From Clostridia bacterium (lineage in GTDB: Bacteria > Bacillota > Clostridia > Christensenellales > Aristaeellaceae), in NCBI GenBank assembly GCA_017936375.1, contig JAGBFR010000036.1, forward strand, positions 1 through 64,000: DNA of 64,000 nucleotides, given 5' to 3'. The notes below the pieces were generated by a model. It did not search any database, had not been told where the DNA came from, and saw only the letters and a program-made list of their open reading frames with translations. Positions within the stretch are counted from its first letter, which is position 1. Each line of letters begins with the position of its first letter. The position numbers and the translations under genes were made by a program. This document shows positions 187 to 52,276 of this stretch, one piece after another.

Positions 187-1257
187 TTATTTCTCGGCCG
201 GAGCAGCAGGCTTCACAGCAGGTGCAGCCGGAGCTTTCTTGACCTTGTCCATCTTGTTGCGCGGAGCACGACGATCACGCATGGTGATCGCCTTCTTCGG
301 GCACTTCTCCGCACACAGACCGCAGCCCGTGCAGGCGCCGAGCACCTTGTGCTTCTGCTTGAGCGCGCCCTCGATGGCGTCAAACTTGCACTGCTTGGTA
401 CATATCGTGCAGCCAACGCACTTATCAGGATCGATGTACGCTTCCTTGCGCTGCTCATAGTCAGCCGCCATCGCACCGGTCGGACAGACGTCGGCACAGG
501 CCATGCAGCCCACGCACTTCTCGTAATCGATCTTCGGCACGCCATTCTCCATGGTCAGCGCGCCAAAGTTACAGGCCTTAACGCAGGCTTCGCAGCCGAT
601 GCAGGCCTTATCGCACTTCTCCTTCAGCGCGATACCCTTCTCAGGGTTATGGCAGCTGACGGTGACGACGCGATTGTCCGGCTGCATGCTCAGCACATGC
701 TGCGGGCAGGCGGCGACGCACTTCTTACAGCCCTGGCACTTCTCCTTATCGACAACGGCAATCTTCTTCACCGGATCGACATGAATCGCGCCGAACGGGC
801 AGGCACGCTCGCAGGTGCCGAGGCCAAGACAGGCGTACTGGCAGGACTTGGTGCCGTTATTCACCAGAGAAGCCGCAACGCAGTCGTGAATGCCCTGATA
901 ATCAAACTTTTCGCCGCAGTGCTCGCCATAGCCCTGGCAGGCAACGGTCGCAACCATGCGCGCGCCGACGCTCGCCTCGACGCCCATGATCTCGCCCATC
1001 TTCTTCGCGCAGGCAGGACCGCCGACGGCGCAGGCGCCGATCTCAGCCTTTCCATCCGCAACAGCGGCGGCATAGCCGTCGCAGCCCGGGAAGCCGCAGG
1101 CGCCGCAGTTCGCGCCCGGCAGGCACTCGCGAAGGGCATCAACCTTCGGATCGGATTCAATGGCAAAGACGCGGTTGGTAACGCCCAGCAGCGCGCCAAA
1201 GATCAGACCCAGCGCACTCATCACGATCGCAGCGATCACAATAGCAGAAAAACTCAT
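187..1257 (-). CDS. rnfB: Rnf complex subunit RnfB, polyferredoxin
   Basis: RnfB is the iron-sulfur subunit of the Rnf complex that receives electrons from ferredoxin on the cytoplasmic side. The 356-residue protein has one N-terminal membrane helix (about 5-27), the four-cysteine cluster motif beginning at Cys45 (CGACGFPGC), and then six ferredoxin-type four-cysteine motifs (for example CQGCKKC, CIGCEAC, CVGCMAC, CVGCTIC, CTGCGLC). Seven predicted [4Fe-4S] clusters fit the long clostridial form rather than the shorter proteobacterial one. The C-terminus is a Lys/Ala/Pro-rich tail. The ATG is preceded by GGGAGG. It is the last gene of rnfCDGEAB and is followed by a terminator. Confidence 0.96.
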   Translation of the reverse strand: MSFSAIVIAAIVMSALGLIFGALLGVTNRVFAIESDPKVDALRECLPGANCGACGFPGCDGYAAAVADGKAEIGACAVGGPACAKKMGEIMGVEASVGARMVATVACQGYGEHCGEKFDYQGIHDCVAASLVNNGTKSCQYACLGLGTCERACPFGAIHVDPVKKIAVVDKEKCQGCKKCVAACPQHVLSMQPDNRVVTVSCHNPEKGIALKEKCDKACIGCEACVKACNFGALTMENGVPKIDYEKCVGCMACADVCPTGAMAADYEQRKEAYIDPDKCVGCTICTKQCKFDAIEGALKQKHKVLGACTGCGLCAEKCPKKAITMRDRRAPRNKMDKVKKAPAAPAVKPAAPAEK

Positions 1258-1279: not shown

Positions 1280-1855
1280 TTAAATCAGACCGGCAAAGCC
1301 GTTGAACGCAACAGCCATCAGACCGGCGGTAATCAGCGCGCCGGTGAAGCCTTCCATCCACTTGGGCATGTTGCCAAGCGCAAGGCGCTCGCGGATGCCG
1401 GCAAACAGGCAGATGGACAGCGTATAGCCAAGCGCAGACGCAGTACCATTGACGACGGAGAGAATCAGGTTGTACCCCTCCGTCACGTTCAGCTGCGCAA
1501 CGCCCAGAACGGCGCAGTTGGTGGTGATCAGCGGAAGATACACGCCGAGCGCCTGATAGAGGCTGGGCATCATCTTCTTGAGCGCCATCTCAACGATCTG
1601 CACCAGAACAGCGATAACCAGAATGAACGCGATGGTCTGCAGATACTCAAGCTGGAACGGAACGAGCAGGAAAGTGTTAATCAGATAGGCAACCAGAGAG
1701 GCCATTGCCATAACGAAGGTAACAGCCATGCCCATGCCAAAGGCGGTTTCCAGCTTCTTGGATACGCCGAGGAACGGACAGATGCCGTAGAAGCGGGACA
1801 TCGCAAAGTTATTGACGAAGATGGAGCCAATCAGAATCGTAAGAATTTCGCTCAT
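1280..1855 (-). CDS. rnfA: Rnf complex membrane subunit RnfA
   Basis: This 191-residue, very hydrophobic protein has about six predicted membrane helices and the RnfA/NqrE family length. With RnfE it forms the pseudo-symmetric membrane core that carries an iron-sulfur centre across the bilayer. Characteristic stretches are the start MSEILTI, FGICPFLGVS-like residues near 24-31, and TTNCAVLG in the middle, which contains the conserved cysteine of the family. The ATG is preceded by AAGGAGG. It lies 12 nt downstream of rnfE and 22 nt before rnfB, so the genes are translated from one message. Confidence 0.96.
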   Translation of the reverse strand: MSEILTILIGSIFVNNFAMSRFYGICPFLGVSKKLETAFGMGMAVTFVMAMASLVAYLINTFLLVPFQLEYLQTIAFILVIAVLVQIVEMALKKMMPSLYQALGVYLPLITTNCAVLGVAQLNVTEGYNLILSVVNGTASALGYTLSICLFAGIRERLALGNMPKWMEGFTGALITAGLMAVAFNGFAGLI

Positions 1856-1867
1856 ACTCTCTCCTCC

Positions 1868-2464
1868 TTACGCCTTCTTCGGCAGCAGCTTGTTCATCAG
1901 CGCCATCATCAGACCAAGCACGATGAAGCCGCCAGCCGGCTTGACCAGCATATCCATCGGCATGTAGCCGGCCGGCATCACCTGAATGCCGAGCAGCGTG
2001 CCCGCGCCGAACAGCTCACGAACCGCGCAGATCATGGTGATCGCACAGGTGAAGCCCAGACCCATGCCCAGGCCATCCACGATGGACGCAAGCGGCTTAT
2101 TCTTGAAGGCAAACGCTTCTGCGCGGCCAAAGATGATGCAGTTGACAACGATCAGCGGAATGAACACGCCCAGCGCAGCATCCAGAGCCGGGACAAACGC
2201 CTTGATGATCAGCTGAACAATGGTAACAAATGTAGCAATGACGACGATGAACGCCGGAATACGAATCTGATCCGGAATCGCCTTGCGCAGCAGAGAAATA
2301 ACCAGATTAGAGAAAACAAGAACGAACGTTGTTGCCAGACCCATGCCAATACCGTTGAAGACAGCGGTAGTGATTGCCAGAGTCGGGCACATACCCAGCA
2401 CCATGCGGAACGTGGGGTTCTCATCGATGATGCCGTTCATGAAGATTTTACGGAGTTCCTTCAT
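1868..2464 (-). CDS. rnfE: Rnf complex membrane subunit RnfE
   Basis: This 198-residue integral membrane protein is of the RnfE/NqrD family, paralogous to RnfA and with the same helix pattern. Diagnostic parts are the N-terminal NGIIDENPTFRMVLGMCP region, which holds one conserved cysteine, and VVNCIIFGRAEAFA in the middle, which holds the other. The start codon directly abuts the rnfG stop codon, and the AGGAGGTG ribosome-binding site lies inside the 3' end of rnfG, so translation is coupled. It acts in electron transfer across the membrane between RnfB and the FMN-bearing RnfG/RnfD. Confidence 0.96.
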   Translation of the reverse strand: MKELRKIFMNGIIDENPTFRMVLGMCPTLAITTAVFNGIGMGLATTFVLVFSNLVISLLRKAIPDQIRIPAFIVVIATFVTIVQLIIKAFVPALDAALGVFIPLIVVNCIIFGRAEAFAFKNKPLASIVDGLGMGLGFTCAITMICAVRELFGAGTLLGIQVMPAGYMPMDMLVKPAGGFIVLGLMMALMNKLLPKKA

Positions 2465-4873
2465 TTACTGCACCTCCTCGGCGGCCTGCTTGAGAGCATT
2501 GTTAATGGCGTTGCTGGTCAGCGTCACGCCGGACTTGACGTCAATCTGAGCGGTCGCAATATCCTGACCGACCAGCGCGTCAAACACGGCGGTATCGGCA
2601 ACCAGATCCGCGCCGAAGCCCGGAGTCTCGCCATGCTCAGTCACAACGACGGAGACGATCTTGCCGTCAGCGCCAACCTCGACGTCGACCTTCATCGGCT
2701 GGAAGCCGGTGACTTCGCAGGTCGTAACCGTAGAAACAGCAGCCTCTTCGGAGGTCTCCGGCAGGGTCGACGGCGTAGCGGCAGCCGCCTGCTTGAGGGC
2801 TTCGTTGATGGCATTGCTGGTCAGCGTCACGCCGGCCTTGACGTCGATCTGAGCGGTCGCGATATCCTGACCAACCAGCGCGTCAAACACGGCGGTGTCA
2901 GCAATCAGATCCGCGCCGAAGCCCGGAGTCTCTCCATGCTCAGTCACAACGATGGAGACGATCTTGCCGTCCGCGCCAACCTCGACGTCAACCTTCATCG
3001 GCTGGAAGCCGGTGACTTCGCAGGTCGTAACCGTAGAAACAGCAGCCTCTTCAGAGGTCTCCGGCAGGGTCGCCGGCGTAGCGGCAGCCGCCTGCTTGAG
3101 GGCATCGTTGATAGCGTTGCTGGTCAGCGTCACGCCGGCCTTGACGTCGATCTGAGCGGTCGCGATATCCTGACCAACCAGCGCGTCAAACACGGCGGTA
3201 TCAGCGATCAGATCCGCGCCAAAGCCCGGAGTCTCGCCATGCTCAGTCACGGAAACGGAGGCAATCTTGCCCTCGCCGTTCACTTCGATAGCAACCTTCA
3301 TCGGCTGGAAACCAGTCGCCTCATAGAAAGGCACCTCGACCGGCGCAGCCTCTTCGGCGGCAGGAGCAGCTTCCTCGACAGGCTCTTCGACAGCCGGGGC
3401 AGCCTCGACAGGCTCTTCCTTAACAACTTCGATGCCATTGGCGGCGGCAGCCTGCGCAATCGCATTGTTGATGGCCGTGCTGGTCAGCGTCACGCCGGCC
3501 TTCACGTCGATACCGGCCGTCGCCAGATCCTGACCGGCCAGCGCAGAAAGCGCCTCCTCCGTCAGCAGATCTGCGCCAAAGCCCGGAGTCTCGCCATGCT
3601 CGGGAGCAGAAACGGAGACGATCTTGCCATCAGCAACCTCAATGTAGAGGATGAACTTGGCAAAGCCCTTCACCGTATACGGATCACCCGGGATCACAGC
3701 GGCGCCGTCGGCAGAGCCGTCAGCAGCAGCCTGCTTGAGCGCGTCGTTGATGGCGTTGCTGGTCAGCGTCACGCCGGACCTGACGTCAATCTGAGCGGTC
3801 GCGATATCCTGACCGACCAGCGCGTCAAACACGGCGGTATCCGCGATCAGATCCGCGCCGAAGCCCGGAGTCTCGCCATGCTCGGTCACGGACACGGAGG
3901 CAATCTTGCCCTCGCCGTCCACTTCGATGGCAACCTTCATCGGCTGGAAGCCGGTGACCTCATACGTCTTCGCACCGCCCTCGGCCGGAGCGCCGGCCAT
4001 CTTGAGAGCCTCATTGATGGCGTTGCTGGTCAGCGTCACGCCGGCCTTGACGTCAATCTGGGCAGTCGCAATATCCTGACCGACCAGGGCGTCAAACACA
4101 GCAGTATCCGCGATCAGATCCGCGCCGAAGCCCGGGGTCTCGCCATGCTCGGTCACGGACACGGAGGCAATCTTGCCCTCGCCGTCCACTTCGATGGCGA
4201 CCTTCATCGGTGCAAAGCCGGTGACGTCGTAAGTATTGGCAGAGGCTTCAGCCACGGTCTCTTCGGCCGGAGCTTCCTCGCTGCCGGCAGAAGCGGCAAG
4301 GATCGCTTCCTTATCGCCCGCCTGCGGCGCAACGCCAAGCTGATTCTTGGTGTAGGTCAGCATCTCGGCGACAGCATTCCTGAAGGCGCTGGAAGACACG
4401 GTCGCGCCGCCGATGGTGTCAACATGGTCGTTCAGCGTGTCCGGATCAGCCGGGATCGCGATGAACTGCTCCATGAAGGGCGCCTCGCCAACCTTGCTGC
4501 CCAGACCGGCAGTCTCCTGCAGCGCGCCGACATAGGTCTGGGTCACCCAGCCCTCAGCGCTCACGCCCAGGGTGATCGGAATCGGTCCGCCGTAGCCCTG
4601 CGGATTGGCAACAAGCGCATAGCCCTTGATTTCGCCGGCTTCATCCTTGCCGGTGAACAGCTGCGCAATCACGCTCTCCTCAGACAGGCCTTCGATGTTC
4701 TCGACTTCTTCATAGCTGCAGCCGGGAAGCACCTTCTCAAGGGCGGCCTTCTGCGCAGCAATCTTCTGCTCCGCGATCGGGCCCTTGGTGACTTCGTTGG
4801 TCACCGCCAGCGCAACGGCGGCGACGCAGGAGAAGATGAAAAGACGAATCGCAAGCTTCAGAATATCACGCAT
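2465..4873 (-). CDS. rnfG: RnfG with six extra tandem FMN-binding modules
   Basis: Residues 1-180 are a complete RnfG: an N-terminal membrane helix (about 7-25), an ETAGLGSK loop (120-127) and the flavinylation motif GGAT with Thr158, where RnfG proteins carry FMN by a phosphoester bond. The remaining 620 residues hold six further modules of about 80 residues at roughly 214-293, 303-382, 398-476, 516-594, 617-696 and 718-797. Each has HGETPGFGA followed by (K/R)(A/S)GVTLTS, and the candidate FMN threonines are 280, 369, 462, 582, 683 and 784. Modules 1, 2, 4, 5 and 6 are nearly identical; module 3 has diverged and is followed by a Glu/Pro/Ala-rich linker (about 477-515). Usual RnfG length is about 200 residues, so this is a fourfold enlargement. 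It overlaps the end of rnfD by 8 nt. RnfG identity is certain; flavin loading of the repeats is inference. Confidence 0.95.
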   Translation of the reverse strand: MRDILKLAIRLFIFSCVAAVALAVTNEVTKGPIAEQKIAAQKAALEKVLPGCSYEEVENIEGLSEESVIAQLFTGKDEAGEIKGYALVANPQGYGGPIPITLGVSAEGWVTQTYVGALQETAGLGSKVGEAPFMEQFIAIPADPDTLNDHVDTIGGATVSSSAFRNAVAEMLTYTKNQLGVAPQAGDKEAILAASAGSEEAPAEETVAEASANTYDVTGFAPMKVAIEVDGEGKIASVSVTEHGETPGFGADLIADTAVFDALVGQDIATAQIDVKAGVTLTSNAINEALKMAGAPAEGGAKTYEVTGFQPMKVAIEVDGEGKIASVSVTEHGETPGFGADLIADTAVFDALVGQDIATAQIDVRSGVTLTSNAINDALKQAAADGSADGAAVIPGDPYTVKGFAKFILYIEVADGKIVSVSAPEHGETPGFGADLLTEEALSALAGQDLATAGIDVKAGVTLTSTAINNAIAQAAAANGIEVVKEEPVEAAPAVEEPVEEAAPAAEEAAPVEVPFYEATGFQPMKVAIEVNGEGKIASVSVTEHGETPGFGADLIADTAVFDALVGQDIATAQIDVKAGVTLTSNAINDALKQAAAATPATLPETSEEAAVSTVTTCEVTGFQPMKVDVEVGADGKIVSIVVTEHGETPGFGADLIADTAVFDALVGQDIATAQIDVKAGVTLTSNAINEALKQAAAATPSTLPETSEEAAVSTVTTCEVTGFQPMKVDVEVGADGKIVSVVVTEHGETPGFGADLVADTAVFDALVGQDIATAQIDVKSGVTLTSNAINNALKQAAEEVQ
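2483..4234 (-). repeat. Six tandem FMN-binding-module repeats inside rnfG
   Basis: Coding repeats of about 240 bp lie at 3995-4234 (module 1), 3728-3967 (2), 3446-3682 (3), 3092-3328 (4), 2786-3025 (5) and 2483-2722 (6). All except module 3 are close copies at DNA level over long stretches, and modules 5 and 6 also share a preceding linker beginning TLPETSEEAAVSTVTT. The similarity indicates recent duplication or gene conversion. Confidence 0.95.
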
Positions 4874-5816
4874 TCTTCTTTACCTCCCCAAAGCTCTTCA
4901 CGCCGGTCACGCGCTCGATCAGCGGGGACGCGACGTTCATCAGCAGGATGGCGTAGGAGCACCATTCCGCCGGGGTCTTCTTGCAGTAGCGGAAAACAAA
5001 CAGCAGCAGGCCACAGCCCAGACCGAAGACGATCTTACCCTTATTGGTAGCAGGAGAAGAAGAGTAATCAGTCGCCATGAAGAACGCACCGAGGATCAGA
5101 CCGCCGGAGAGCAGCTGATACAGGGTCACATTCACATCAAAGCCGGTCGCCAGCAGATAGCACACGGCAAAGGAGCCAAGGAAGGCTGCCGGGATGTGCC
5201 AGCTGATGACCTTCTTCCAGAGCAGATACGCAGCGCCGATGAGCAGCGCGATCTTGCTGGTCTCACCGATGGTGCCGGGGCAGTCGCCCAGGAAGAGCTG
5301 CAGCAGCGTGAAGGTTTCCTTGGAGGCACCGGAGATCGGCGTCGCAGAAGCGATCGCATCAACGCCGGCCAGGTTACCAAACTGCGCTGGAGCGAAGGAC
5401 GTCATCACCGTCGCCCAGGAAAGCGCGAGAATCGCGCGGGCAGCGAGCGCCGGGTTGATGAAGTTCTGGCCGATACCGCCAAAGATCATCTTGCACAGCA
5501 GGATCGCAATGACAGAGCCGATAATCGGCATCCAGTACGGCGCAGTGGACGGCAGGTTCATCGCGAGGAGCATGCCGGTGACCACAGCGCTGAAATCGCC
5601 GACAGACACCTTCTGATGCGCGGCCTTGCAGTAGAACCATTCGCTCAGCACCGCTGCCGCAACGGACAGCGCGAGAATCACCGCAGCGCGATAGCCAAAG
5701 AACAGCACGCCGGCAGCGCAGGCAGGCAGCATGGCAATGCAGACATCCTGCATAATGCTCCTGGTCGAAACATTATCGCGCAGATGCGGAGAAGACGAAA
5801 CAACATACTTAGACAT
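4866..5816 (-). CDS. rnfD: Rnf complex membrane subunit RnfD
   Basis: This 316-residue polytopic protein is of the RnfD/NqrB family, which carries a covalent FMN and takes part in ion translocation. Visible hallmarks are SSSPHLRDN at 7-15, FGGIGQNFINPALAARA at about 112-128, and the flavinylation motif SAT with Thr159 in the segment GVDAIASATP. About nine to ten hydrophobic segments are present. The ATG is preceded by GGAGG at 9 nt. The gene overlaps rnfG by 8 nt and follows rnfC by 21 nt, so it is the second gene of the operon. Confidence 0.96.
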   Translation of the reverse strand: MSKYVVSSSPHLRDNVSTRSIMQDVCIAMLPACAAGVLFFGYRAAVILALSVAAAVLSEWFYCKAAHQKVSVGDFSAVVTGMLLAMNLPSTAPYWMPIIGSVIAILLCKMIFGGIGQNFINPALAARAILALSWATVMTSFAPAQFGNLAGVDAIASATPISGASKETFTLLQLFLGDCPGTIGETSKIALLIGAAYLLWKKVISWHIPAAFLGSFAVCYLLATGFDVNVTLYQLLSGGLILGAFFMATDYSSSPATNKGKIVFGLGCGLLLFVFRYCKKTPAEWCSYAILLMNVASPLIERVTGVKSFGEVKKNA

Positions 5817-5837: not shown

Positions 5838-7157
5838 TTAGGACTTTTTGCTTCTGGCGATAGCCTTGGCAACGCGGCAGCTCTGCGTGAGCTGGCGCTT
5901 GGCCGGGCAGGCGTACGTGCAGGCGCCGCACTCCATGCAGTTCATCGCGCCAAGCGCAATGGCGCCATCGTAATCATCGTGGCGGACCATGGCGTCAATC
6001 TTCGCCGGCATCAGGCCCATCGGGCAGGTGCGGATGCAGCGGCCGCAGCGGATGCACGGAGACTCCTCATCGCTCAGGCCCTCGTCGCCAAAGGCGAGGA
6101 AGCCGCCGAAGTTCTTGGTAATCGGCAGATTGAGAGACGGGACGCTCATGCCCATCATCGGGCCGCCGATGACAAGCTTGCGCACGCCTTCCGTCAGACC
6201 GCCAGCCTGATCGACCAGATCCATAAGATTCGTACCAATGCGCACACGGAAGTTGCACGGATTGGCCACGCGGCCGGCAAAGGTCACCACGCGCTCAACG
6301 AGCGGCTTGCCCTCGCGTACGGCAGCGGACAGCGCAGCACAGGTGGAAACATTGAGCACAACACACTTAACCGCGCTGGGCAGCGCTCCATTGGGTACCT
6401 TGCGGCCAGTCAGCGCGTAAATGAGCATCTTCTCACCGCCCTGCGGGTACATTACCGGCAGCGCAACAACCTCAATGCCCTCCGTCGCAGCAGCCTTGAG
6501 CGCAGAGATCGCCTCGGGCTTATTGTCTTCGATGCCGATCTTGGCAAGCTTCACGCCGGTAGCCTTCATAGCGATGCGGATACCGTCGATAATCTGCGCC
6601 GCAGACTCGATCATGAGACGGTCATCGCTGGTCAGATAGGGCTCGCACTCGGCGCCATTAACGACGAGCGTATCCGGCTTGGGATCCAGCTTGCTGGTGT
6701 CAAGCTTGACGAAAGTCGGGAAAGCCGCGCCGCCAAGACCAACGATGCCAGCATTTCTTGCGATGGAAACAATCTCCTCCGGGGTCAGCGCGTCGACGTT
6801 TTCACACGGGCGCACAGATTCGTCCCAGCGATCCTCGTAATCATTCTCAATGACCACGGCGGGAACGGCGCGGCCGGCGGCGACCGTGCAGGTCGTCACG
6901 GCGATCACCTTGCCGGAGACGGAAGCATGAACAGGCGCGGAGATAAAGCCCTGCGCCTCACCAATCACCTGGCCCAGATTGACCGTATCGCCAACCTTGA
7001 CGCAGCACTTTGCGGGGGCGCCCGCATGCTGAGACAGGGCGATCGTCACCTTAGCCGGTGCAGCGGCGTTCACAATCGGAGCGGCACAGGTGGACGCTTT
7101 GCCGTTGCCGATCTCGTGCGGATGAATACCGCCGCTGAATGCCTGGGTAGTAGCCAC
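5838..7157 (-). CDS. rnfC: Rnf complex subunit RnfC, NADH-binding
   Basis: RnfC is the peripheral cytoplasmic subunit that binds NAD(H) and FMN and passes electrons within Rnf. The start is taken as GTG at 7157, giving 439 residues, the usual length, with GGGAGG 9 nt upstream; a TTG at 7163 is possible. The open frame runs another 78 codons upstream, but that stretch crosses the promoter and is not RnfC-like. Motifs are GGIHPHEIG (9-17), the glycine-rich GLGGAAFPTFVK (140-151), NGAECEPYLTSD (167-178), and two ferredoxin motifs, CIRCGRCIRTCP and CMECGACTYACP, between about 368 and 418. It is the first gene of the operon. Confidence 0.95.
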   Translation of the reverse strand: MATTQAFSGGIHPHEIGNGKASTCAAPIVNAAAPAKVTIALSQHAGAPAKCCVKVGDTVNLGQVIGEAQGFISAPVHASVSGKVIAVTTCTVAAGRAVPAVVIENDYEDRWDESVRPCENVDALTPEEIVSIARNAGIVGLGGAAFPTFVKLDTSKLDPKPDTLVVNGAECEPYLTSDDRLMIESAAQIIDGIRIAMKATGVKLAKIGIEDNKPEAISALKAAATEGIEVVALPVMYPQGGEKMLIYALTGRKVPNGALPSAVKCVVLNVSTCAALSAAVREGKPLVERVVTFAGRVANPCNFRVRIGTNLMDLVDQAGGLTEGVRKLVIGGPMMGMSVPSLNLPITKNFGGFLAFGDEGLSDEESPCIRCGRCIRTCPMGLMPAKIDAMVRHDDYDGAIALGAMNCMECGACTYACPAKRQLTQSCRVAKAIARSKKS

Positions 7158-7224
7158 AGACAAGTTCCTCCCTTCGATTTTCAAGTGTTCTTTATTTGAA
7201 CCTGAAAACAAAATGATACGCTTT

Positions 7225-7253
7225 ATTATACCACACAAGCATGTAAAATGAAA
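7225..7253 (-). promoter_or_regulatory. Probable sigma-A promoter of the rnf operon
   Basis: On the minus strand a perfect TATAAT (7230-7225) lies 17 nt from TTTCAT (7253-7248), about 70 nt upstream of the rnfC start. The -35 element is poor. The yicC promoter at 30157-30185 has the same two hexamers and spacing. Confidence 0.65.
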
Positions 7254-7331
7254 TATTGATTTAGCCAAATAACCATTGTTAATTTTGTACTCAGCGGAGA
7301 TTCGTCCGGACTCTTTACATGCCGCAAATAC

Positions 7332-7370
7332 AGAACGGCGGTCTGTTATTCCCCAACAGACCGCCGTTCT
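7332..7370 (-). terminator. Terminator of spoIVA
   Basis: A perfect 16-bp stem (7332-7347 with 7355-7370) and a 7-nt loop lie 5 nt after the spoIVA stop codon. The T tract behind it is short, so the long GC-rich stem is the main evidence. Confidence 0.8.
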
Positions 7371-7375
7371 ATGTG

Positions 7376-8854
7376 TTACAAGAGAATACAAAGCATTCCC
7401 CCGCTGCCCTCGTTGATAATTTTCTCCAGTGTCTGCCGCAGCTTAAGCTGCGCGTCCTCCGGCATATGCATCAATTTGCTGGATAGCCCTTCTCTCACAA
7501 GATCCGAAAGCGGTTTACCAAACAGATTGCTCTGCCATAGTTTCTGCGGATCCTGCTCAAATCCATCCAGAAGATATCGAATCATCTCCTCAGACTGCTG
7601 CTCAGATCCAACCAGCGGCGAAACTTCCGTATTGATATCTACGCGGATCAAATGCAGGCTGGGTGCACTTGCACGCAGGCGAACGCCGAACCGCCCGCCT
7701 TGTCGGATCATCTCCGGCTCCTGCAGCGTCAGTTCTTCCAGTTTGGGCGGCACAAGACCGTATCCCGTCTCCCTGACGGAGCGAAGAGCTGCCTCGATAT
7801 GGTCGTATTCCCGTTTTGCCTCCACGAGTTCGCGCAGAAGAGACAGCAGATGCGCGTCGCTTCTGATCTCTGTACCGCACTGCTCCGCAAGAATCCTATT
7901 GAACATCCCCTCGTTCAAGCAAAGCTGCAGCGTTAATTCGCCATTTCCATGCTGCACCCGCCTGACAAAGACGTCCGAAAGATGCTCATTCTGAGCAATA
8001 TCCCGCGCAAAACTCGCAGCGCCGCCAATAATCAGCTCACCGCGCACTGCATTGATGATGCTCGCCTCCAGGCTGCGAACCAGCCAATGACTGTTATCCA
8101 GCGCGCCGATCCACTCCGGCGTCTGTATGCTTACGCAGCCGACCGGAAACTGGTCAAGCACAATCCCGATGATTGCACGGATATCGTCTTCTCCCATCTT
8201 TGCAATATCCACAGCCAGAATGGGCATGCCGTATTCCTTTTCAAGCCGATTGACCAGTTCCTTCGTTTTGACAGCGTCAGGCGCCGATGTATTCAGGAGA
8301 ATAGCAAATGGCTTCCCCAGCGCTTTCAGCTCATCAATCACGCGCTTTTCTGCTTGAGCATAGGCTTCGCGCGGAAGATCGGTCACGCTGCCATCTGTCG
8401 TAACGACCAACCCGATCGTCGAGTGTTCGCCAATGACCTTCCTCGTTCCGATCTCAGCCGCCTGTTCAAATGGGATCGCAGACTCTGCCCACGGCGTGTT
8501 GACCATGCGGAGGGTCTCGCCCTCCTGCGTCCCAAGCGCCCCCTCCACCAGATAGCCTACGCTGTCCACGAGCCGGATCCTGACCCTGCTGCTTTCCGGC
8601 AGCGTCACTTCAACCGCTTCATTGGGTACAAAGGCCGGCTGGGTCGTCATAATCGTGCGGCCCGATCCGCTCTGAGGAATCTCATCCAGCATCCTCGACC
8701 GCAAATGCACATTCTCTACCCCAGGGATCACGATCTGCTCCATGAATTTCTGAATAAACGTCGATTTCCCCGTTCTGACAGGCCCTACGACGCCAATGTA
8801 GACATCTCCCTTCGTCCTCATGGCAATATCCTGATACAAATCTGCTGCCTGCAT
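7376..8854 (-). CDS. spoIVA: Stage IV sporulation protein A, spore-coat ATPase
   Basis: SpoIVA is the ATPase that polymerises on the forespore outer membrane as the basement layer of the coat. The chosen ATG gives 492 residues, the same length as the Bacillus subtilis protein, and has GGAGGG just upstream; the open frame extends 30 codons further without family similarity. The N-terminus contains the P-loop GPVRTGKST. The central part has DSVGYLVEGALG and INTPW/EIGTRKVI-like family segments, and the C-terminus ends with the near-invariant INEGSGG and a hydrophobic tip. It marks the organism as an endospore former and has its own sigma-E-like promoter. Confidence 0.97.
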   Translation of the reverse strand: MQAADLYQDIAMRTKGDVYIGVVGPVRTGKSTFIQKFMEQIVIPGVENVHLRSRMLDEIPQSGSGRTIMTTQPAFVPNEAVEVTLPESSRVRIRLVDSVGYLVEGALGTQEGETLRMVNTPWAESAIPFEQAAEIGTRKVIGEHSTIGLVVTTDGSVTDLPREAYAQAEKRVIDELKALGKPFAILLNTSAPDAVKTKELVNRLEKEYGMPILAVDIAKMGEDDIRAIIGIVLDQFPVGCVSIQTPEWIGALDNSHWLVRSLEASIINAVRGELIIGGAASFARDIAQNEHLSDVFVRRVQHGNGELTLQLCLNEGMFNRILAEQCGTEIRSDAHLLSLLRELVEAKREYDHIEAALRSVRETGYGLVPPKLEELTLQEPEMIRQGGRFGVRLRASAPSLHLIRVDINTEVSPLVGSEQQSEEMIRYLLDGFEQDPQKLWQSNLFGKPLSDLVREGLSSKLMHMPEDAQLKLRQTLEKIINEGSGGMLCILL

Positions 8855-15816: not shown

Positions 15817-16776
15817 TTATTCATACAGGCTCAGCAGATTTCCGCCAAGCAGCGCCTGTATATCTTTTTCAATTGTTCCGCTTTCCAGCGGGTAGCCGGA
15901 CCTGGCCAGCGGCAGATACGCATCGCAAAGTGCCTGCCAGAACGCATCTTTTGCCACAATCCATCTCCCAAGCATCATATCCGGAGACAAAGCGCGGCAG
16001 GTAAACGGGATAAACCTCGTCCCCAGCGCAGCAAGAGCCTCCTCAAGATGATCCATGCTGCTCAGCACAGGAAGCAACCGCGGCTGTTCTGCAGCAGCCG
16101 CAATCAGCCTTCCGTCAAGCCCGGAGGCCGCATGCACCACCGCACGGACAGACGGAAAACTCTCCAGCAGCGCACAGAAACGACCGATCTCGCCCTCATC
16201 CCTAAGAAGCACATGCAGCACAGCATGCATATCCTCGCAGACGGGGAACGCGCAATAGCGCAGCGCATGCTCATCAAAGCGCCTGATCATGAGATCCTTT
16301 GAATTCATAGCGGCGAGCATATCTTCCAGCCGTTTGGCAAGCTGCGCGTAATCGACGCCATAGCGTCCGGCTTCAAAGAAGGACTCATCAGCGGCAATCA
16401 TGGGAGAAATCCTGTCCTCACCATAGAAATCGACGCTCTGCGCCCTGCAGTCGACAGTCACCAGCACGCGCTTGGCACGCATGGAGTCGAGCACTTCGCG
16501 AATATAAGCATGACGCTCATAGCTCTGCTGAATCGACCGTGCACTGCTGAGGTCCCTGGCCGGCAGCTCCAGCGCATCCAGTGCAGCATAGAATGCGGCG
16601 CCGTTTTCACCAAAGGGCGTTCCCTTCCCTGGATGCACGCCAGCCTCATCCATCAGCGCATCGACGCCAAGCGGCCCATTCTGCATGTCAAAATCAAGGC
16701 AGCATTCCGCAATCTGAACGCGGCGCACTGCCTGCTTGACGCAGCGCTTGAGCTCCTGTTTATCGCTAATGATCAT
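15817..16776 (-). CDS. Uncharacterised protein, possibly a degenerate amidohydrolase
   Basis: I do not recognise this 319-residue protein with certainty. Its C-terminal half looks like the second half of an amidohydrolase-type TIM barrel: alternating VRAVVHAASGLDG and FIPFTC strands, then LGRWIVAKDAFW and the closing IQALLGGNLLSLY, which recalls the IxGGNA ending of that superfamily. The HxH or DxHxH metal motif expected near the N-terminus is missing (the position reads CLDFDMQNG), so it may be inactive or use another chemistry. The ATG overlaps the hemZ stop by 1 nt, so the two are translationally coupled. Confidence 0.65.
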   Translation of the reverse strand: MIISDKQELKRCVKQAVRRVQIAECCLDFDMQNGPLGVDALMDEAGVHPGKGTPFGENGAAFYAALDALELPARDLSSARSIQQSYERHAYIREVLDSMRAKRVLVTVDCRAQSVDFYGEDRISPMIAADESFFEAGRYGVDYAQLAKRLEDMLAAMNSKDLMIRRFDEHALRYCAFPVCEDMHAVLHVLLRDEGEIGRFCALLESFPSVRAVVHAASGLDGRLIAAAAEQPRLLPVLSSMDHLEEALAALGTRFIPFTCRALSPDMMLGRWIVAKDAFWQALCDAYLPLARSGYPLESGTIEKDIQALLGGNLLSLYE

Positions 16777-18269
16777 CAGATCTCCCCTTTTGCCTGTGTG
16801 CGCAGCGCAGCAAGCTGCTCTGCCTTGAGGGCAAACGCCTGACGCTTGCGCTCAATCATCTCATCCACACGTGCGATGTACTGCTCGATATTCGCTATAT
16901 TCGGCGCACGGAGGATTTTCTCCTCTTGACGCATGACACATTTTGATATGCCGCCTGCGCCAAGGGCCAGCACGCTGGTGGTCTCCTCCATGTTATCGAT
17001 GTTATAGCGGCAGACGCTTCTGCGCTTCGCATAACCGACATTCTCGAGGTTATCCGCCATGTACTTCTGCCTGTACAGATAATAGGCGCGCATCCCCATC
17101 GCATGCGCCGTCTCGCGCCCGAGGGCCACCATCCTTGCCACGTCGTCCGCGCTCTGCTGATAGCGCTGCTCATGCAGCTTTGAAGAGCGCTTGATGGCGA
17201 GGGTGTGAACGGTCAGACTGTCCGGCCCCAATTCACGGATTCTGTCCAGCGTCGAGGCGAACATCCCGTAATCTTCACCCGGAAGCGCAGCGATGACGTC
17301 CATATTGATGTCGTCAAACCCCAGACTGCGCGCCAGCGCATAGCATTCAACCGTCTGCTGCGCCGTATGCGCGCGGCCAATGCGCACGAGGGTCTCATCA
17401 TTCATCGTCTGCGGATTGATGCTGATTCTCGTGACGGGATGGCTGCGCATCATGCTCAGCTTTTCTCTGTCAAGGGTATCCGGCCTGCCAGCCTCGACAG
17501 TCCATTCTGTCAGAGGACCAAACCGCTTCTCCGCATGGGTCAGCAGCCGGTCAAGCTGCTTGGTCGTCAGGCTGCTCGGCGTGCCTCCGCCGATATAACC
17601 CACGCTGACGTCAAGCCCGTATTCGCTCGCCATCTCGCTGCAGACGTCAATCTCATGCAGCAGCGCATCCAGATACGGCTCCACCAGCCTGCCGTTTCCG
17701 ATCTCGCCTGAGGAAAACGAGCAGTAACTGCACCGCGTCGTGCAGAACGGGATGCCGATGTACAGGTCACACGCATTGGCGGGCCTTTCAATCAGCCTCT
17801 CCTGCGCGTCGAGAATCTCATCCAGCAGATCCAGTTTTTCATCGGACAGGTCAAAGAGCTCCGCCAGCGCAGCTCTTGCCTCGCTCCTGCTCTTTCCCAT
17901 CTCCATCTGCTGATAATACAGCCTCGTCGGACGGATGCCCGTCAGGGATCCCCATGCGGGCCGCCTGCCGGTTATCTCCTTGAACAGACGATAGCAGCAG
18001 CGCTTGATCAGCCGCTTGAGCTGGCGCTTTTCCTCCAGCCCGCCGCAGGTATATGCCTCGCCGCGGAGCGTGGCGCACGTCGCCGTCGGCCCGCTGCTGA
18101 GCGAAAAGCACTCGATCCACATGCCGTCTTCCTGAGCATGCGTATGCTCAAGCTCGGCGTCATGCTCCTCCTGCATGGTCACCGCAGCGCCTTCGCCATA
18201 AAACAGCCGCACCACATCGGCGATATCATTGGCAAAGGCCTCAAACGGCGTCTGTATGGCAATCCTCAC
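16776..18269 (-). CDS. hemZ: HemZ-type radical SAM coproporphyrinogen dehydrogenase
   Basis: This 497-residue radical SAM protein of the HemZ/HemN group is expected to convert coproporphyrinogen III anaerobically or to act in a related heme step. Cys176, Cys180 and Cys183 form the SAM-cluster motif in IPFCTTRCSYCSF. The HemZ-type N-terminal domain (about 1-160) contains GSLTGIRPTRLYY. The start is GTG at 18269, whose codon overlaps the upstream TGA by 4 nt and has GGAGG 8 nt ahead; an earlier in-frame ATG at 18290 would overlap the upstream gene more. Few other heme genes are visible here, so its substrate is inferred from family. Confidence 0.88.
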   Translation of the reverse strand: MRIAIQTPFEAFANDIADVVRLFYGEGAAVTMQEEHDAELEHTHAQEDGMWIECFSLSSGPTATCATLRGEAYTCGGLEEKRQLKRLIKRCCYRLFKEITGRRPAWGSLTGIRPTRLYYQQMEMGKSRSEARAALAELFDLSDEKLDLLDEILDAQERLIERPANACDLYIGIPFCTTRCSYCSFSSGEIGNGRLVEPYLDALLHEIDVCSEMASEYGLDVSVGYIGGGTPSSLTTKQLDRLLTHAEKRFGPLTEWTVEAGRPDTLDREKLSMMRSHPVTRISINPQTMNDETLVRIGRAHTAQQTVECYALARSLGFDDINMDVIAALPGEDYGMFASTLDRIRELGPDSLTVHTLAIKRSSKLHEQRYQQSADDVARMVALGRETAHAMGMRAYYLYRQKYMADNLENVGYAKRRSVCRYNIDNMEETTSVLALGAGGISKCVMRQEEKILRAPNIANIEQYIARVDEMIERKRQAFALKAEQLAALRTQAKGEI

Positions 18270-18871
18270 AGGTACTGCCTCCGTTCCCACGCAATCTTTG
18301 TCTTCATGCCATGGCCGGGATAGACGACCGTCTCCGGATCAAGCGTCAGCAGCTTTTTCAGCGACATGGCCATCTGCATATTGCTGCCGCCGGGAAGATC
18401 CACCCTGCCATAGCCGTTGTAAAACATCGTATCGCCTGCAAAGAGGGTCTGCCCGCTGAGCAGGCACATGCTGCCCGGCGTATGACCGGGCGTATGCACG
18501 ACGGTCAGTTCCATGCCAGCCTCCCTGATGACGTCCCCATCATGAAGGAGAACGTCCGCATTGGGCAGCATAAGGCGTACACGCATCATCGCCGAGGCAT
18601 TCAGGTCAGGATCGGTAAGCGCGGGCGCGTCCTTCTCGTGAACGTACAGCTTTGCCCCCTGCCTGAGCCACTGCATGGCGTAGAGCATATGATCAAAGTG
18701 CGCATGGGTCAGGATGACTGCGCTGACTTTTCTGCCGCACGCCGCCCCTTCCACAGAAGCAAACTCTGCACCCGGGTCGATCACCACACAGCTGTCATAT
18801 CCTTCGGCGGACACCACGTAGGTATTTACCTGCAGCGGACCGCCGGTCACAATTCTGATATCCAGATCCAT
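18266..18871 (-). CDS. MBL-fold metallo-hydrolase, glyoxalase II-like
   Basis: This 201-residue metallo-beta-lactamase-fold hydrolase has the metal-binding HxHxDH motif at 56-61 (THAHFDH), a later HTPGHTPGS, GDTMFYNGYGR and the final PGHG. It resembles the short glyoxalase II-like proteins common in Firmicutes, whose usual substrates are thioesters such as hydroxyacylglutathione or bacillithiol analogues; the actual substrate is unknown. The start overlaps the dtd stop by 1 nt and its stop overlaps the hemZ GTG start by 4 nt, so the three genes are tightly coupled. Confidence 0.9.
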   Translation of the reverse strand: MDLDIRIVTGGPLQVNTYVVSAEGYDSCVVIDPGAEFASVEGAACGRKVSAVILTHAHFDHMLYAMQWLRQGAKLYVHEKDAPALTDPDLNASAMMRVRLMLPNADVLLHDGDVIREAGMELTVVHTPGHTPGSMCLLSGQTLFAGDTMFYNGYGRVDLPGGSNMQMAMSLKKLLTLDPETVVYPGHGMKTKIAWERRQYL

Positions 18872-44951: not shown

Positions 44952-45877
44952 TCCCTGATCACCTCCATGAATACATCCTCCAGCGTCGCCTTATCCCTGT
45001 GGCAGGCGCACACACGCAGTCCGGCGCCGATCAGATCCCGCAGCAGCGCCGCATCCTGCGCTCTGTCCTCCGGCATATCAATGCGGCAGCGCCCTTCATC
45101 CATCGCGGCTTCCGCGCCCGTGACCCGCCTGCACACCTCTGCGGCAAGCTCCCTTTCCGCATCATCGAGCGCCTTATCAAACTCAATCACAAGCGTTGCG
45201 GCAGCATGGATCTTCTTTTCCAGTTCATCCATCTGCCCGCTGAATACAAGCTTTCCCTTATCGAGAATGGACATTGAACTGCACAGCTCGGAGAGCTCCG
45301 GCAGAATATGGGAAGAGATGAGCACCGTCTTTCCCGTCCGCCCGATCTCACGCAGAATATCCCTCATTTCAGCGCGCGATCTCGGGTCCATGCCGGAGGC
45401 CGGCTCGTCCAGAATGAGCAGCTCCGGATCGTGGAGCATGGCACGGCAGAGGCAGAGCCTCTGCTTCATGCCTCGCGAGAGATCATCCACATACCGCTCT
45501 CTTTTGTCTCTCATGCCCGTCATATCCAGCAGCTCGTCGATTCTCCTGCGGCGCGCTTTCGCGCTTATCCGCATGCAGCCGGCATACAGGTCGAGGTACT
45601 CCCACGCCTTGAGATTATCATACACGCCAAAGAAATCCGGCATATAGCCGATCACCTTTCGCGCCGCCTCAGGATCCGCAGCCACATCAACACCGCCGAT
45701 CATCGCCCTGCCCGAGGTCGGGCTCAGGAGCGTGGCAAAGATTCGCATGGCGGTCGATTTGCCTGCTCCATTTGGACCGACAAAACCATGCACCTCGCCC
45801 GCGTCCACATGAAGATCAAGCTGATCAAGCGCGAGCAGCTGTCCATATCGCCTGCTGAGCTTTTCACATTGGATCAC
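44948..45877 (-). CDS. ABC transporter ATP-binding protein
   Basis: This 309-residue ATPase is of the ABC-2 exporter class. Walker A is GPNGAGKST (34-42), the signature is DLSRGMKQRL, Walker B is LLILDEPASGMD and the switch histidine lies in ISSHILPE. The C-terminal 80 residues (from about 220) form the accessory domain seen in this group. Both ends overlap neighbours by 4 nt, showing translational coupling to the 822-residue protein upstream and the permease downstream. Confidence 0.95.
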   Translation of the reverse strand: MIQCEKLSRRYGQLLALDQLDLHVDAGEVHGFVGPNGAGKSTAMRIFATLLSPTSGRAMIGGVDVAADPEAARKVIGYMPDFFGVYDNLKAWEYLDLYAGCMRISAKARRRRIDELLDMTGMRDKRERYVDDLSRGMKQRLCLCRAMLHDPELLILDEPASGMDPRSRAEMRDILREIGRTGKTVLISSHILPELSELCSSMSILDKGKLVFSGQMDELEKKIHAAATLVIEFDKALDDAERELAAEVCRRVTGAEAAMDEGRCRIDMPEDRAQDAALLRDLIGAGLRVCACHRDKATLEDVFMEVIRE

Positions 45878-48342
45878 TTTGTCCTCACTCCTTCCACCGT
45901 AATCCTCGGCGCATAGACGCCCGATTCCATCTGTCCCATATAGCGGACAAAGACCTCGCCATCGGCGCTGACCGCGCGTCTTGCCAGTTCGCCGTCCGCC
46001 TCGGCGTAACTTAGTCCATCAATCGCAATCCATTCCCCGGCTTCATGGTCATAGACCGCTGCTGTCAGCTCCTCACGCTCAATCCAGCTATCCGTGGAAA
46101 AAGCCAGTCGCGCGACGTCCATATCAAGGATTCCCTCCGGCCTGTAGGCAAAGACGGCCTCCTTTTCCGCGCTCACATAACCGTTCTTCATCTCCTGTCC
46201 GCTCGTCGGTACGTCGTTTTCATCCATAGACACGCTGAGCACCGGCGTCGCCTCGCGCGGAATGTAGACATAGCCGTCATCGCCCGCAAGGCTGCACTGC
46301 ATATCGGCAAACACCATGCCCGTATGCGCGCAGCGGTCAATTTTCTCTCCGTCGATAAGCAGCGGCGTCCCCTGCGCATCCTTTTCTCTTGCAGCCAGCA
46401 TGCAGAAGAACGTGTCGCTATGGCTTTCAGCGCCGCTGCGCACAAGCTCTGCGGCAAGGCTGCGCTCGTACTGCTCCTGATCGCTGTACTGGATACTCTT
46501 GCCTTCCGTCTGCTCCTCCGGATAGGCATATGCGTGAGCGATGGTATATACATTCGTCGTATACGGCAGAATCTCGCCCTCGGTGATCACCGGATTCGCG
46601 TCCTGATCAAACTTCCATTTGCAGGGGCGGCTGATATGCACAGCCGCCTCCTGCCCGGGCGCAAGGCTTCCTACTCTCGCATAGCCAAGGCTCGTCATCA
46701 GGATGGCATCCTCAAGCTGCATCGGCGTCCCGTTTCTTATTTCAGCGCGCAGGCCATCCCGGGTCAGCTGCGCCTGCGCCTCAATGATGCCCTGCGACTT
46801 ATCTTCCTTGACGATGACCAGATCCCTCGTCGTCCACGACGCCGCGGACGGAAGCTCCAGCGAAGGCGCATTCCCCTCACGCATGACGTCTCTGAGCTCA
46901 AGCTCGTCCTCTTTAGAAAAATAGCTGCTGGCATATCCATAGCTCAGGCGCTCAATGCGCTCACCTGTTCCCGCGCTGATCACGGCGCGCTCCTGACCCA
47001 TATACCCGAGGTGAACGATCTCCTGCACATCTCCGCCGCCGTCGATCCCATACTGTGTCACGCGCAGGGACGACGCGGCAGGCTGTCCAAAGCCAAGCCC
47101 GATTCCATGCAGGACAGCTGCGCCGCACATCGCAACAGCCAGCGCAGGCAGGATTGCCCAGATCAGCTTTGTCCTGTCCCTGCTGCGGAGCAGCGCATAG
47201 AGCCCTACGCCTGAAACGAGCGCATACCCGGAAAGCAGGATGACAAACGGCAGGATGCTCTTTCCTTCATCTACCCTCTGCATGCGCGCCGCGGCCGTGG
47301 CAATCGTATAATTCGGCGTGCTGCTCTCCTCAACAATCTGACGATAGCGCTCAGAATCAATGGTCAGCAGCATCCTCCTGAGGATCGCCTGCTTCTCATT
47401 GGCCTGACGCGTGGCCGTCGTATCCCAGTCAAATCCAGTAATTACAAGCAATCCGCGTCCCTTCCTGCAGGCTGCGGCGATTGCCCCATCATCTGCAGAA
47501 ATCAAAGCGTCCGCATCCTTTGCTTCCAGCCGGAATTCTGCTGCATCGTCCAGACCATCGGTCTGATAGGCCGTATCCGTATAGCCCATCAGCGCATGGA
47601 TAACGCCTTGCGCGTCCGGTTCCGAGGAATCAGCCTTTATCAGACCGACGTCCGCAAGCTGAGCTGCCCAGTGAAGCGTATCGTTTCCGCCTTTTCCCGT
47701 TCCGGCAATCAGAATACCTCCGTCCAGCAGCCATTCCGTCAGCGCGGCCTTCTGTTCATCGGACAGCGGACAATCTCCGCTGAACATCATCACATCAAAC
47801 GCGCTCAGCTCCCGCTCGCTCCTGCCGACAGCATCCATATCAAGCGGAATCGCATGAATGGTTTCCATTCGCTTGAGCGGGTCTTCGGTCTCATCCGTGG
47901 TCAGCGACGCTGCAGCTGCCTCGTCCGTACATCCGGGCAGACCGATAACCATCGCATTGCGCTCAATCGACTGTGCAGCTCGATACGACGCAGAAGCCAG
48001 AATCTGCTCCTCATGCCTGAGCGTCAGCGAAAACTCCATCTGAGGCACAAGCGTCAGGATGGGAATCGTCATTTCAGCCACTTCGCCTGCGTCAGCCTGA
48101 ACATCGATCTCGATCCTGTCCTTCATGCCGGATCGGGCATGAAGGTCAATCGCCACCGTACCGTCGATCGCCTCGTCTCCCGCCTCTATGCGGATATTCA
48201 GCGGCTGATAACGGCCGCAGAGCACAGCGTCTCCATACCCCACATGCAGCTCAATCTTTGGCGTTCCCTCTGCACATGCCACCGAAAGCAGGCAAAGCAG
48301 CAGGAGAAATACAGGTATAATCCGCCTTCTCTTCGCTCTCAT
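45874..48342 (-). CDS. Large exported membrane protein of an ABC operon, unknown function
   Basis: This 822-residue protein is not one I can assign. A signal sequence (about 6-25) leads an all-beta domain (about 30-125), then a GATase/flavodoxin-like domain (about 130-310, with FDVMMFSGDCPLS and LLDGGILIAGTG), two membrane helices near 365-425 (PFVILLSGYALV and WAILPALAVAMCGAAVL) and a beta-rich extracytoplasmic tail. The layout recalls the accessory proteins of gliding-type or ABC-2 systems, but similarity is only architectural. ATG has GGAGG 8 nt upstream. The stop overlaps the ATPase gene. Confidence 0.8.
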   Translation of the reverse strand: MRAKRRRIIPVFLLLLCLLSVACAEGTPKIELHVGYGDAVLCGRYQPLNIRIEAGDEAIDGTVAIDLHARSGMKDRIEIDVQADAGEVAEMTIPILTLVPQMEFSLTLRHEEQILASASYRAAQSIERNAMVIGLPGCTDEAAAASLTTDETEDPLKRMETIHAIPLDMDAVGRSERELSAFDVMMFSGDCPLSDEQKAALTEWLLDGGILIAGTGKGGNDTLHWAAQLADVGLIKADSSEPDAQGVIHALMGYTDTAYQTDGLDDAAEFRLEAKDADALISADDGAIAAACRKGRGLLVITGFDWDTTATRQANEKQAILRRMLLTIDSERYRQIVEESSTPNYTIATAAARMQRVDEGKSILPFVILLSGYALVSGVGLYALLRSRDRTKLIWAILPALAVAMCGAAVLHGIGLGFGQPAASSLRVTQYGIDGGGDVQEIVHLGYMGQERAVISAGTGERIERLSYGYASSYFSKEDELELRDVMREGNAPSLELPSAASWTTRDLVIVKEDKSQGIIEAQAQLTRDGLRAEIRNGTPMQLEDAILMTSLGYARVGSLAPGQEAAVHISRPCKWKFDQDANPVITEGEILPYTTNVYTIAHAYAYPEEQTEGKSIQYSDQEQYERSLAAELVRSGAESHSDTFFCMLAAREKDAQGTPLLIDGEKIDRCAHTGMVFADMQCSLAGDDGYVYIPREATPVLSVSMDENDVPTSGQEMKNGYVSAEKEAVFAYRPEGILDMDVARLAFSTDSWIEREELTAAVYDHEAGEWIAIDGLSYAEADGELARRAVSADGEVFVRYMGQMESGVYAPRITVEGVRTK

Positions 48343-52244: not shown

Positions 52245-52276
52245 ATTGTACACCTCATTTCAGACTATGTGCATCC

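Follow-up and report, generated by a model that had tools for sequence, protein, structure and literature searches.

A seven-domain RnfG in a clostridial rnf operon: six additional FMN-binding domains as a candidate branch from the Rnf pump to exported flavin reductases

In the Rnf pump, RnfG ordinarily shuttles a single electron by swinging back and forth between RnfA/E and RnfD (PMC12174285). The locus described here raises the question of what an RnfG with seven FMN-binding domains could do, whether its additional domains can be loaded with flavin, and where their electrons would go. It lies within a 64,000-nucleotide stretch of DNA from a Clostridia bacterium of the Aristaeellaceae (assembly GCA_017936375.1, contig JAGBFR010000036.1), hereafter the window, which encodes rnf genes in the order C-D-G-E-A-B on the minus strand, as assigned from Pfam and NCBIfam matches of the neighboring genes (Table 1). 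The ends of the operon genes overlap or abut; rnfG starts within the 3' end of rnfD, and rnfE starts directly after the rnfG stop codon. The listed TTG start of rnfC is probably too early, since the TIGR01945 match begins only at residue 84. RnfD contains a flavinylation-type motif of its own (DAIASAT at residue 153). Furthermore, a SpoIVA gene was identified upstream of rnfC, and the host is therefore probably a spore-former.

Table 1. Genes of the rnf operon and domains of RnfG, in positions of the window
Feature	Position	Strand	Evidence and remarks
rnfC	5838..7391	minus	TIGR01945 497.4 bits, cut-off 246; two CxxCxxC motifs
rnfD	4866..5816	minus	PF03116 359.1 bits
rnfG, 802 aa	2465..4873	minus	Head and six FMN_bind modules; ORF, Pfam, NCBIfam
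rnfE	1868..2464	minus	PF02508 222.7 bits; E versus A by operon position
rnfA	1280..1855	minus	PF02508 198.2 bits; E versus A by operon position
rnfB, ferredoxin-type Fe-S subunit	187..1257	minus	FeS and Fer4 matches, motifs
RnfG head, residues 1-185	4319..4873	minus	One N-terminal TM helix; DTIGGATVSS with candidate FMN Thr158
Tail module 1, residues 213-296	3986..4237	minus	Candidate Thr280 in DVKAGVTLTS
Tail module 2, residues 303-386	3716..3967	minus	Candidate Thr369 in DVRSGVTLTS
Tail module 3, residues 396-480	3434..3688	minus	Candidate Thr462; most divergent of the modules
Tail module 4, residues 514-599	3077..3334	minus	Candidate Thr582
Tail module 5, residues 615-700	2774..3031	minus	Candidate Thr683
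Tail module 6, residues 716-802	2468..2728	minus	Candidate Thr784

The first-pass annotation had read rnfG as a normal RnfG head followed by six additional FMN_bind-like modules. Its coordinates and length were correct, although no strand was given, and the domain searches agree with this reading: the protein contains seven PF04205 (FMN_bind) stretches with a total of 297.6 bits (Pfam cut-off 22), single modules scoring 39.2-59.7 bits against the same cut-off, and matches TIGR01947 with 185.5 bits over the whole protein (cut-off 102), the best stretch being residues 9-176. A script aligning each module to the profile recovered the same seven candidate flavin threonines that had been proposed, and the reported repeats proved invariant across the six tail modules (HGETPGFGAD and GVTLTS). 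Successive profile matches are separated by 16-49 residues. For tail module 2, the only module searched against solved structures, the best match was 8p2b (E 4.4e-8, nearly the whole module aligned), which is domain 1 of CbFMN4 and proved to be completely flavinylated (PMC10339131). The isoalloxazine pocket of NqrC/RnfG is built in part by residues 172-176 in Vibrio cholerae numbering, and FMN is attached at T225 (PMC12174285); from our reading of the alignment ranges of the structure match, HGETPG appears to correspond to residues 172-176. In Pfam, the repeats also gave weak matches to Inhibitor_I78, C1-set, DUF5054 and SurA_N, which were set aside as no single stretch passed by itself. Standard RnfG and NqrC proteins (7zc6, 8rb9, 8ahx, 4u9s; TIGR01947) share the head, the TM helix, the flavin threonine motif and the operon with the window's RnfG, but contain a single FMN domain and lack the tail.

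The proposed location of the modules on the outer face of the membrane agrees with the predicted topology. Hydropathy windows of 19 residues exceed 1.6 only when starting at residues 3-11, corresponding to a single hydrophobic segment at residues 3-29, and the highest window after residue 40 reaches 1.13. As the head is outside by homology and the sole hydrophobic segment is N-terminal, the tail should be located outside the cytoplasmic membrane. Neither CxxCH nor an LPxTG-like motif was found in the protein by motif scan.

Long repeats, and the fact that nine of the 17 genus rnfG frames end at a contig end inside rnfG, could point to an artefact of assembly or sequencing, one of the circumstances that the first-pass annotation had named as fatal to its reading. 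However, the six tail modules all differ, with pairwise DNA identities of 68-91%, and dN/dS ratios are 0.11-0.47 in all 15 pairs. The architecture also agrees in other genomes, and long RnfGs are present in relatives. The RnfG head was detected at ≥55% identity in 16 of 21 genus genomes, the window's own included. Modules could be read in 17 genomes of the genus, six of them (the window's own among these) from the family sample and the other 11 fetched in addition, each of which has at least one tail module and 2-9 FMN_bind domains per frame; the eight uncut frames, from the window and seven relatives, contain 5-9. Furthermore, a search of genome contigs retrieved three loci of close relatives, all Clostridia MAGs. 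Module divergence, selection and these other genomes rule out an assembly artefact for the multi-module architecture, and we regard the probability that the multi-module RnfG is spurious as negligible. For 35 of 71 tail modules the closest relative is another module of the same genome, and for 24 of 71 it lies elsewhere at the same ordinal position, a mixed pattern as regards concerted evolution.

Taking D-x-x-[ST]-G-A-[ST] as the canonical ApbE target motif, none of the six tail modules contains it: all read G-V-T, retaining D, G and T, and four of the six also carry A at the motif's [ST] position. Among the 73 tail modules of the 17 genus genomes, of which two are without a readable motif, D, G and the acceptor T never vary (71/71), and the position before the acceptor T is occupied by V in 51 modules, by A in 18 and by S in two. 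The corresponding 17 heads read GAT (14) or GAS (3) and in no case GVT, which is likewise absent from the 27 FMN_bind domains that the window's genome has outside RnfG (23 GAT, two GST, one GCS and one SCT). Other genera seldom have GVT: among the readable domains that follow the first one in their rnf-linked frames, it occurs in 3 of 94. In the tails of close relatives, the residues before T read, module by module, AAVAA (G032), AAVV (G154) and AASAAAAA (G153). The notion that GVT marks dead modules is weakened by the invariant T and by this interchange of A and V, and the best reading of the alignments is that GVT represents a genus-level tolerated variant of the flavinylation motif. As a change of the motif Ala to Val in a Klebsiella fumarate reductase left approximately 50% of flavinylation (Bertsova et al., as reported in the review PMC12052999), loading of the tail with FMN is plausible, perhaps incompletely or with a co-adapted ApbE. 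The natural GVT repeats would allow the requirements of ApbE around its target threonine to be tested directly.

The window's genome encodes one ApbE (207.6 bits, cut-off 25.6), the enzyme that the first-pass annotation had suggested looking for, with a lipoprotein-type signal recognized by eye; at least one ApbE is present in all 21 genus genomes searched. FMN_bind occurs at 34 places in 23 proteins of the window's genome, seven of them in RnfG. A Sec- or Tat-like N-terminus, as judged by eye and hydropathy, is present in each of the remaining 22 proteins (one, at C11, is cut by its contig end), and 21 of them also match FAD_binding_2, the build of ApbE-flavinylated fumarate- or urocanate-reductase-like enzymes. 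Extracytosolic enzymes of this type are named in PMC8238504; they would be likely receivers of electrons from RnfG and not the same kind of protein. FAD_binding_2 has 42 matches in the window's genome, compared with 13-45 across the 21 genus genomes. The window's own contig contains no FMN_bind reductase gene.

Searches for alternative membrane donors covered NapH-like, MsrQ-like and PepSY types and DsbD_TM. The window's genome, which is 81% complete, so that absences are soft, yielded no match above cut-off to Fer4_5 (8/21 genus and 6/14 control genomes), Ferric_reduct (1/21 and 4/14), PepSY_TM (0/21 and 4/14) or the quinone synthesis family UbiA (2/21 and 14/14). DsbD_TM was found once (13/21 genus and 10/14 control genomes); the frame, at G000:C50, appears to consist of a CcdA-like membrane region and, behind it, a thioredoxin-like region, and a thiol route seems likelier for it than a role as electron donor. 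As NapH-like, MsrQ-like and PepSY donors and UbiA were not found in this genome, at its 81% completeness, Rnf is the strongest candidate for supplying electrons to the many extracytosolic flavin reductases, a set that possibly works without quinones.

We also investigated whether the number of RnfG modules and the presence of further FMN_bind proteins co-occur across the family. RnfD is encoded in 132 of 150 family genomes; besides the window, DNA downstream from rnfD was fetched for 80 of the 132, and upstream DNA for 40 of these 80. Counting the window, the rnf cluster includes an FMN_bind gene in 43 genomes, and in 30 of these a linked frame has at least two FMN_bind domains, up to nine (for G112 this is a frame distinct from its RnfD-RnfG fusion). 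The comparison includes 32 of the 43 genomes; 11 were dropped because the frame was cut (G035, G055, G065, G069, G071, G090, G125, G135 and G143), because it fell into two pieces (G082) or because a fusion with RnfD stood next to another multi-domain protein (G112), and G070, also with an RnfD fusion, was retained as single-module. Domains outside RnfG were taken as the Pfam matches per genome minus the modules counted with a profile built from the domains of the window's genome, differences of one or two being inexact; at least two such domains were present in 14 of 19 genomes with a multi-module RnfG vs 1 of 13 with a single-module RnfG (Fisher p 0.0003, Mann-Whitney p 0.001), these genomes being related and hence non-independent. 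The same comparison by genus means, which mends this kinship only partly, gave 8/12 vs 0/9 (Fisher p 0.002, with a weaker Mann-Whitney p of 0.021). Five of the 19 multi-module genomes (G012, G034, G039, G042 and G115) have no other FMN_bind domain; exported FMN_bind reductases therefore cannot be the sole receivers, and the tail can have other partners.

Multi-flavinylated RnfGs, defined as having more than one FMN-binding domain, have already been reported (Meheust et al. 2021, eLife e66878; PMC8238504), and the novelty of a multi-flavin RnfG is thus lower than initially thought. By its seven domains and predicted outer side, the window's RnfG fits this definition. Like it, the published RnfGs lie in an rnf cluster, contain more than one FMN_bind domain, and have been proposed to form a second pathway to extracytosolic acceptors, with examples in Christensenellales; a multiheme domain noted among them is absent from the window's RnfG but present in a relative (L221). 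Near-identical extracytosolic FMN_bind domains on flexible linkers are also found in CbFMN4 of a Clostridiaceae bacterium and SaFMN3 of Streptomyces azureus, which resemble the RnfG tail but are not RnfGs, carry DxxxGAT instead of GVT, and are proven to be flavinylated (PMC10339131). Likewise, the multiheme cytochrome MmcA of Methanosarcina acetivorans provides an extracytosolic electron outlet on Rnf, although its hemes are located on a separate protein and the system is archaeal (PMC6703419, PMC12174285). In the literature covered, consisting of parts of mostly open-access main texts, neither GVT-type tail modules nor a multi-flavin RnfG feeding the exported flavin reductases of its genome are described. 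The kind of protein is therefore known; what is unusual here is the attachment motif, together with an informative genomic setting.

We lean, with moderate confidence, towards a reading in which the six-domain flavin tail of a complete Rnf pump is loaded by ApbE and provides a branch to approximately 21 exported FMN_bind/FAD_binding_2 reductases. In such a system, RnfG would bear a flexibly linked tail of six FMN_bind domains outside the cytosol, with ApbE placing FMN on the head and, at least partly, on the GVT threonines of the tail. The head FMN, reduced by RnfA/E, would pass electrons along the usual path to RnfD and NAD+ or, alternatively, by collision to the FMNs of the tail and from there to soluble or wall-bound proteins outside the cell, where an exported reductase's own FMN domain could accept them. 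The reductases would most likely be the main receivers, and Rnf would serve as the hub of a respiration without quinones; that the tail is covalently loaded, that a branch exists and which proteins receive its electrons are all inferred. The first-pass annotation had envisaged a flavin wire leading to a surface or extracellular acceptor. Seven FMN_bind domains were indeed found, outside by prediction, but instead of ordered, directional transfer the linkers of 16-49 residues and the near-identical domains suggest equal tethered carriers, as SaFMN3 has been read (PMC10339131), and instead of a generic acceptor the exported flavin reductases are likelier. Should the tail carry flavin and feed them, this clostridium would respire many organic acceptors via an ion pump without quinones, and the branch point would be part of the Rnf pump itself. 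A more far-reaching version, which is tentative and less likely than not, would make Rnf the sole outlet of quinone-free respiration, the seven-flavin RnfG with its valine-tuned tail switching electrons at one subunit between NAD+ and organic acceptors through some 20 reductases.

Against a branch speaks that it would drain electrons past the NAD+ step, and other roles for the tail have to be weighed. GVT modules that are apo or hold flavin loosely could act as a spacer or docking arm, with FMN only on the head. The restriction of GVT to tail modules, compared with the heads and the remaining FMN_bind domains of the genome, and the reduced flavinylation after an A-to-V change would fit this idea, but it is quite unlikely given the invariant threonine, the GAT motifs in tails of close relatives, the retention of HGETPG in all six modules and the half of flavinylation that survives with Val. 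A loaded tail might instead serve extracellular transfer across the cell wall to minerals, humics or shuttles. Multi-flavinylated proteins have been proposed for longer-distance electron transfer (PMC8238504), the five multi-module genomes without other FMN_bind domains offer no such protein receivers, and the 1011-aa RnfG-like frame of L221 combines five FMN_bind domains with four CxxCH motifs. The window's RnfG has neither CxxCH nor an LPxTG-like motif, though, and the many exported reductase-like proteins of its genome are obvious receivers, making non-protein acceptors unlikely here, if worth keeping in mind.

The tail could also represent a reservoir of flavin and electrons or an oxygen scavenger without specific receivers, as near-identical modules should share similar potentials and reduced SaFMN3 reacts with O2 (PMC10339131). 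This role leaves the co-occurrence with exported FMN_bind proteins unexplained and appears quite improbable, and a branch to the exported reductases remains our preferred reading.

Several further observations were made in the window and among its relatives. The window encodes a HemZ-type coproporphyrinogen dehydrogenase (16776-18290, minus strand; 483 bits, cut-off 321), an enzyme of the heme pathway, yet its RnfG lacks a heme motif. Two long frames on the same strand (45874-48342 and 50055-52253; 822 and 732 aa) have no NCBIfam match at E 1e-30. In 22 family genomes with rnfC adjoining rnfD, no FMN_bind gene was found in approximately 7 kb of DNA before rnfD or in the 1.5-5 kb after it; these loci include L106/L165/L220 (G057) and L088/L154 (G149), a 23rd genome (G033) has just 1.8 kb of upstream DNA, and in the eight of the 22 genomes inspected on the downstream side, rnfE-A-B directly follow rnfD. 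The RnfD frames of L145 (G084, 633 aa) and L146 (G013, 489 aa) carry what looks like a central insertion, with the alignment to ordinary RnfD interrupted near residue 155. Apparent RnfD-RnfG fusions, in which RnfD and an FMN_bind domain share one frame of approximately 520 aa, were identified at L143 (G070), L144 (G112) and L221:2128-3684 (G132). The 1011-aa frame mentioned above (L221:5778-8810) is located downstream of rnfB and resembles the flavin/multiheme RnfG reported for Christensenellales (PMC8238504). Other loci, including L167 (G094), L168 (G019) and L169 (G136), have rnfG upstream of rnfC and rnfD, and the ten uncut multi-module frames in this order encode proteins of 411-1333 aa with 3-9 FMN_bind domains.
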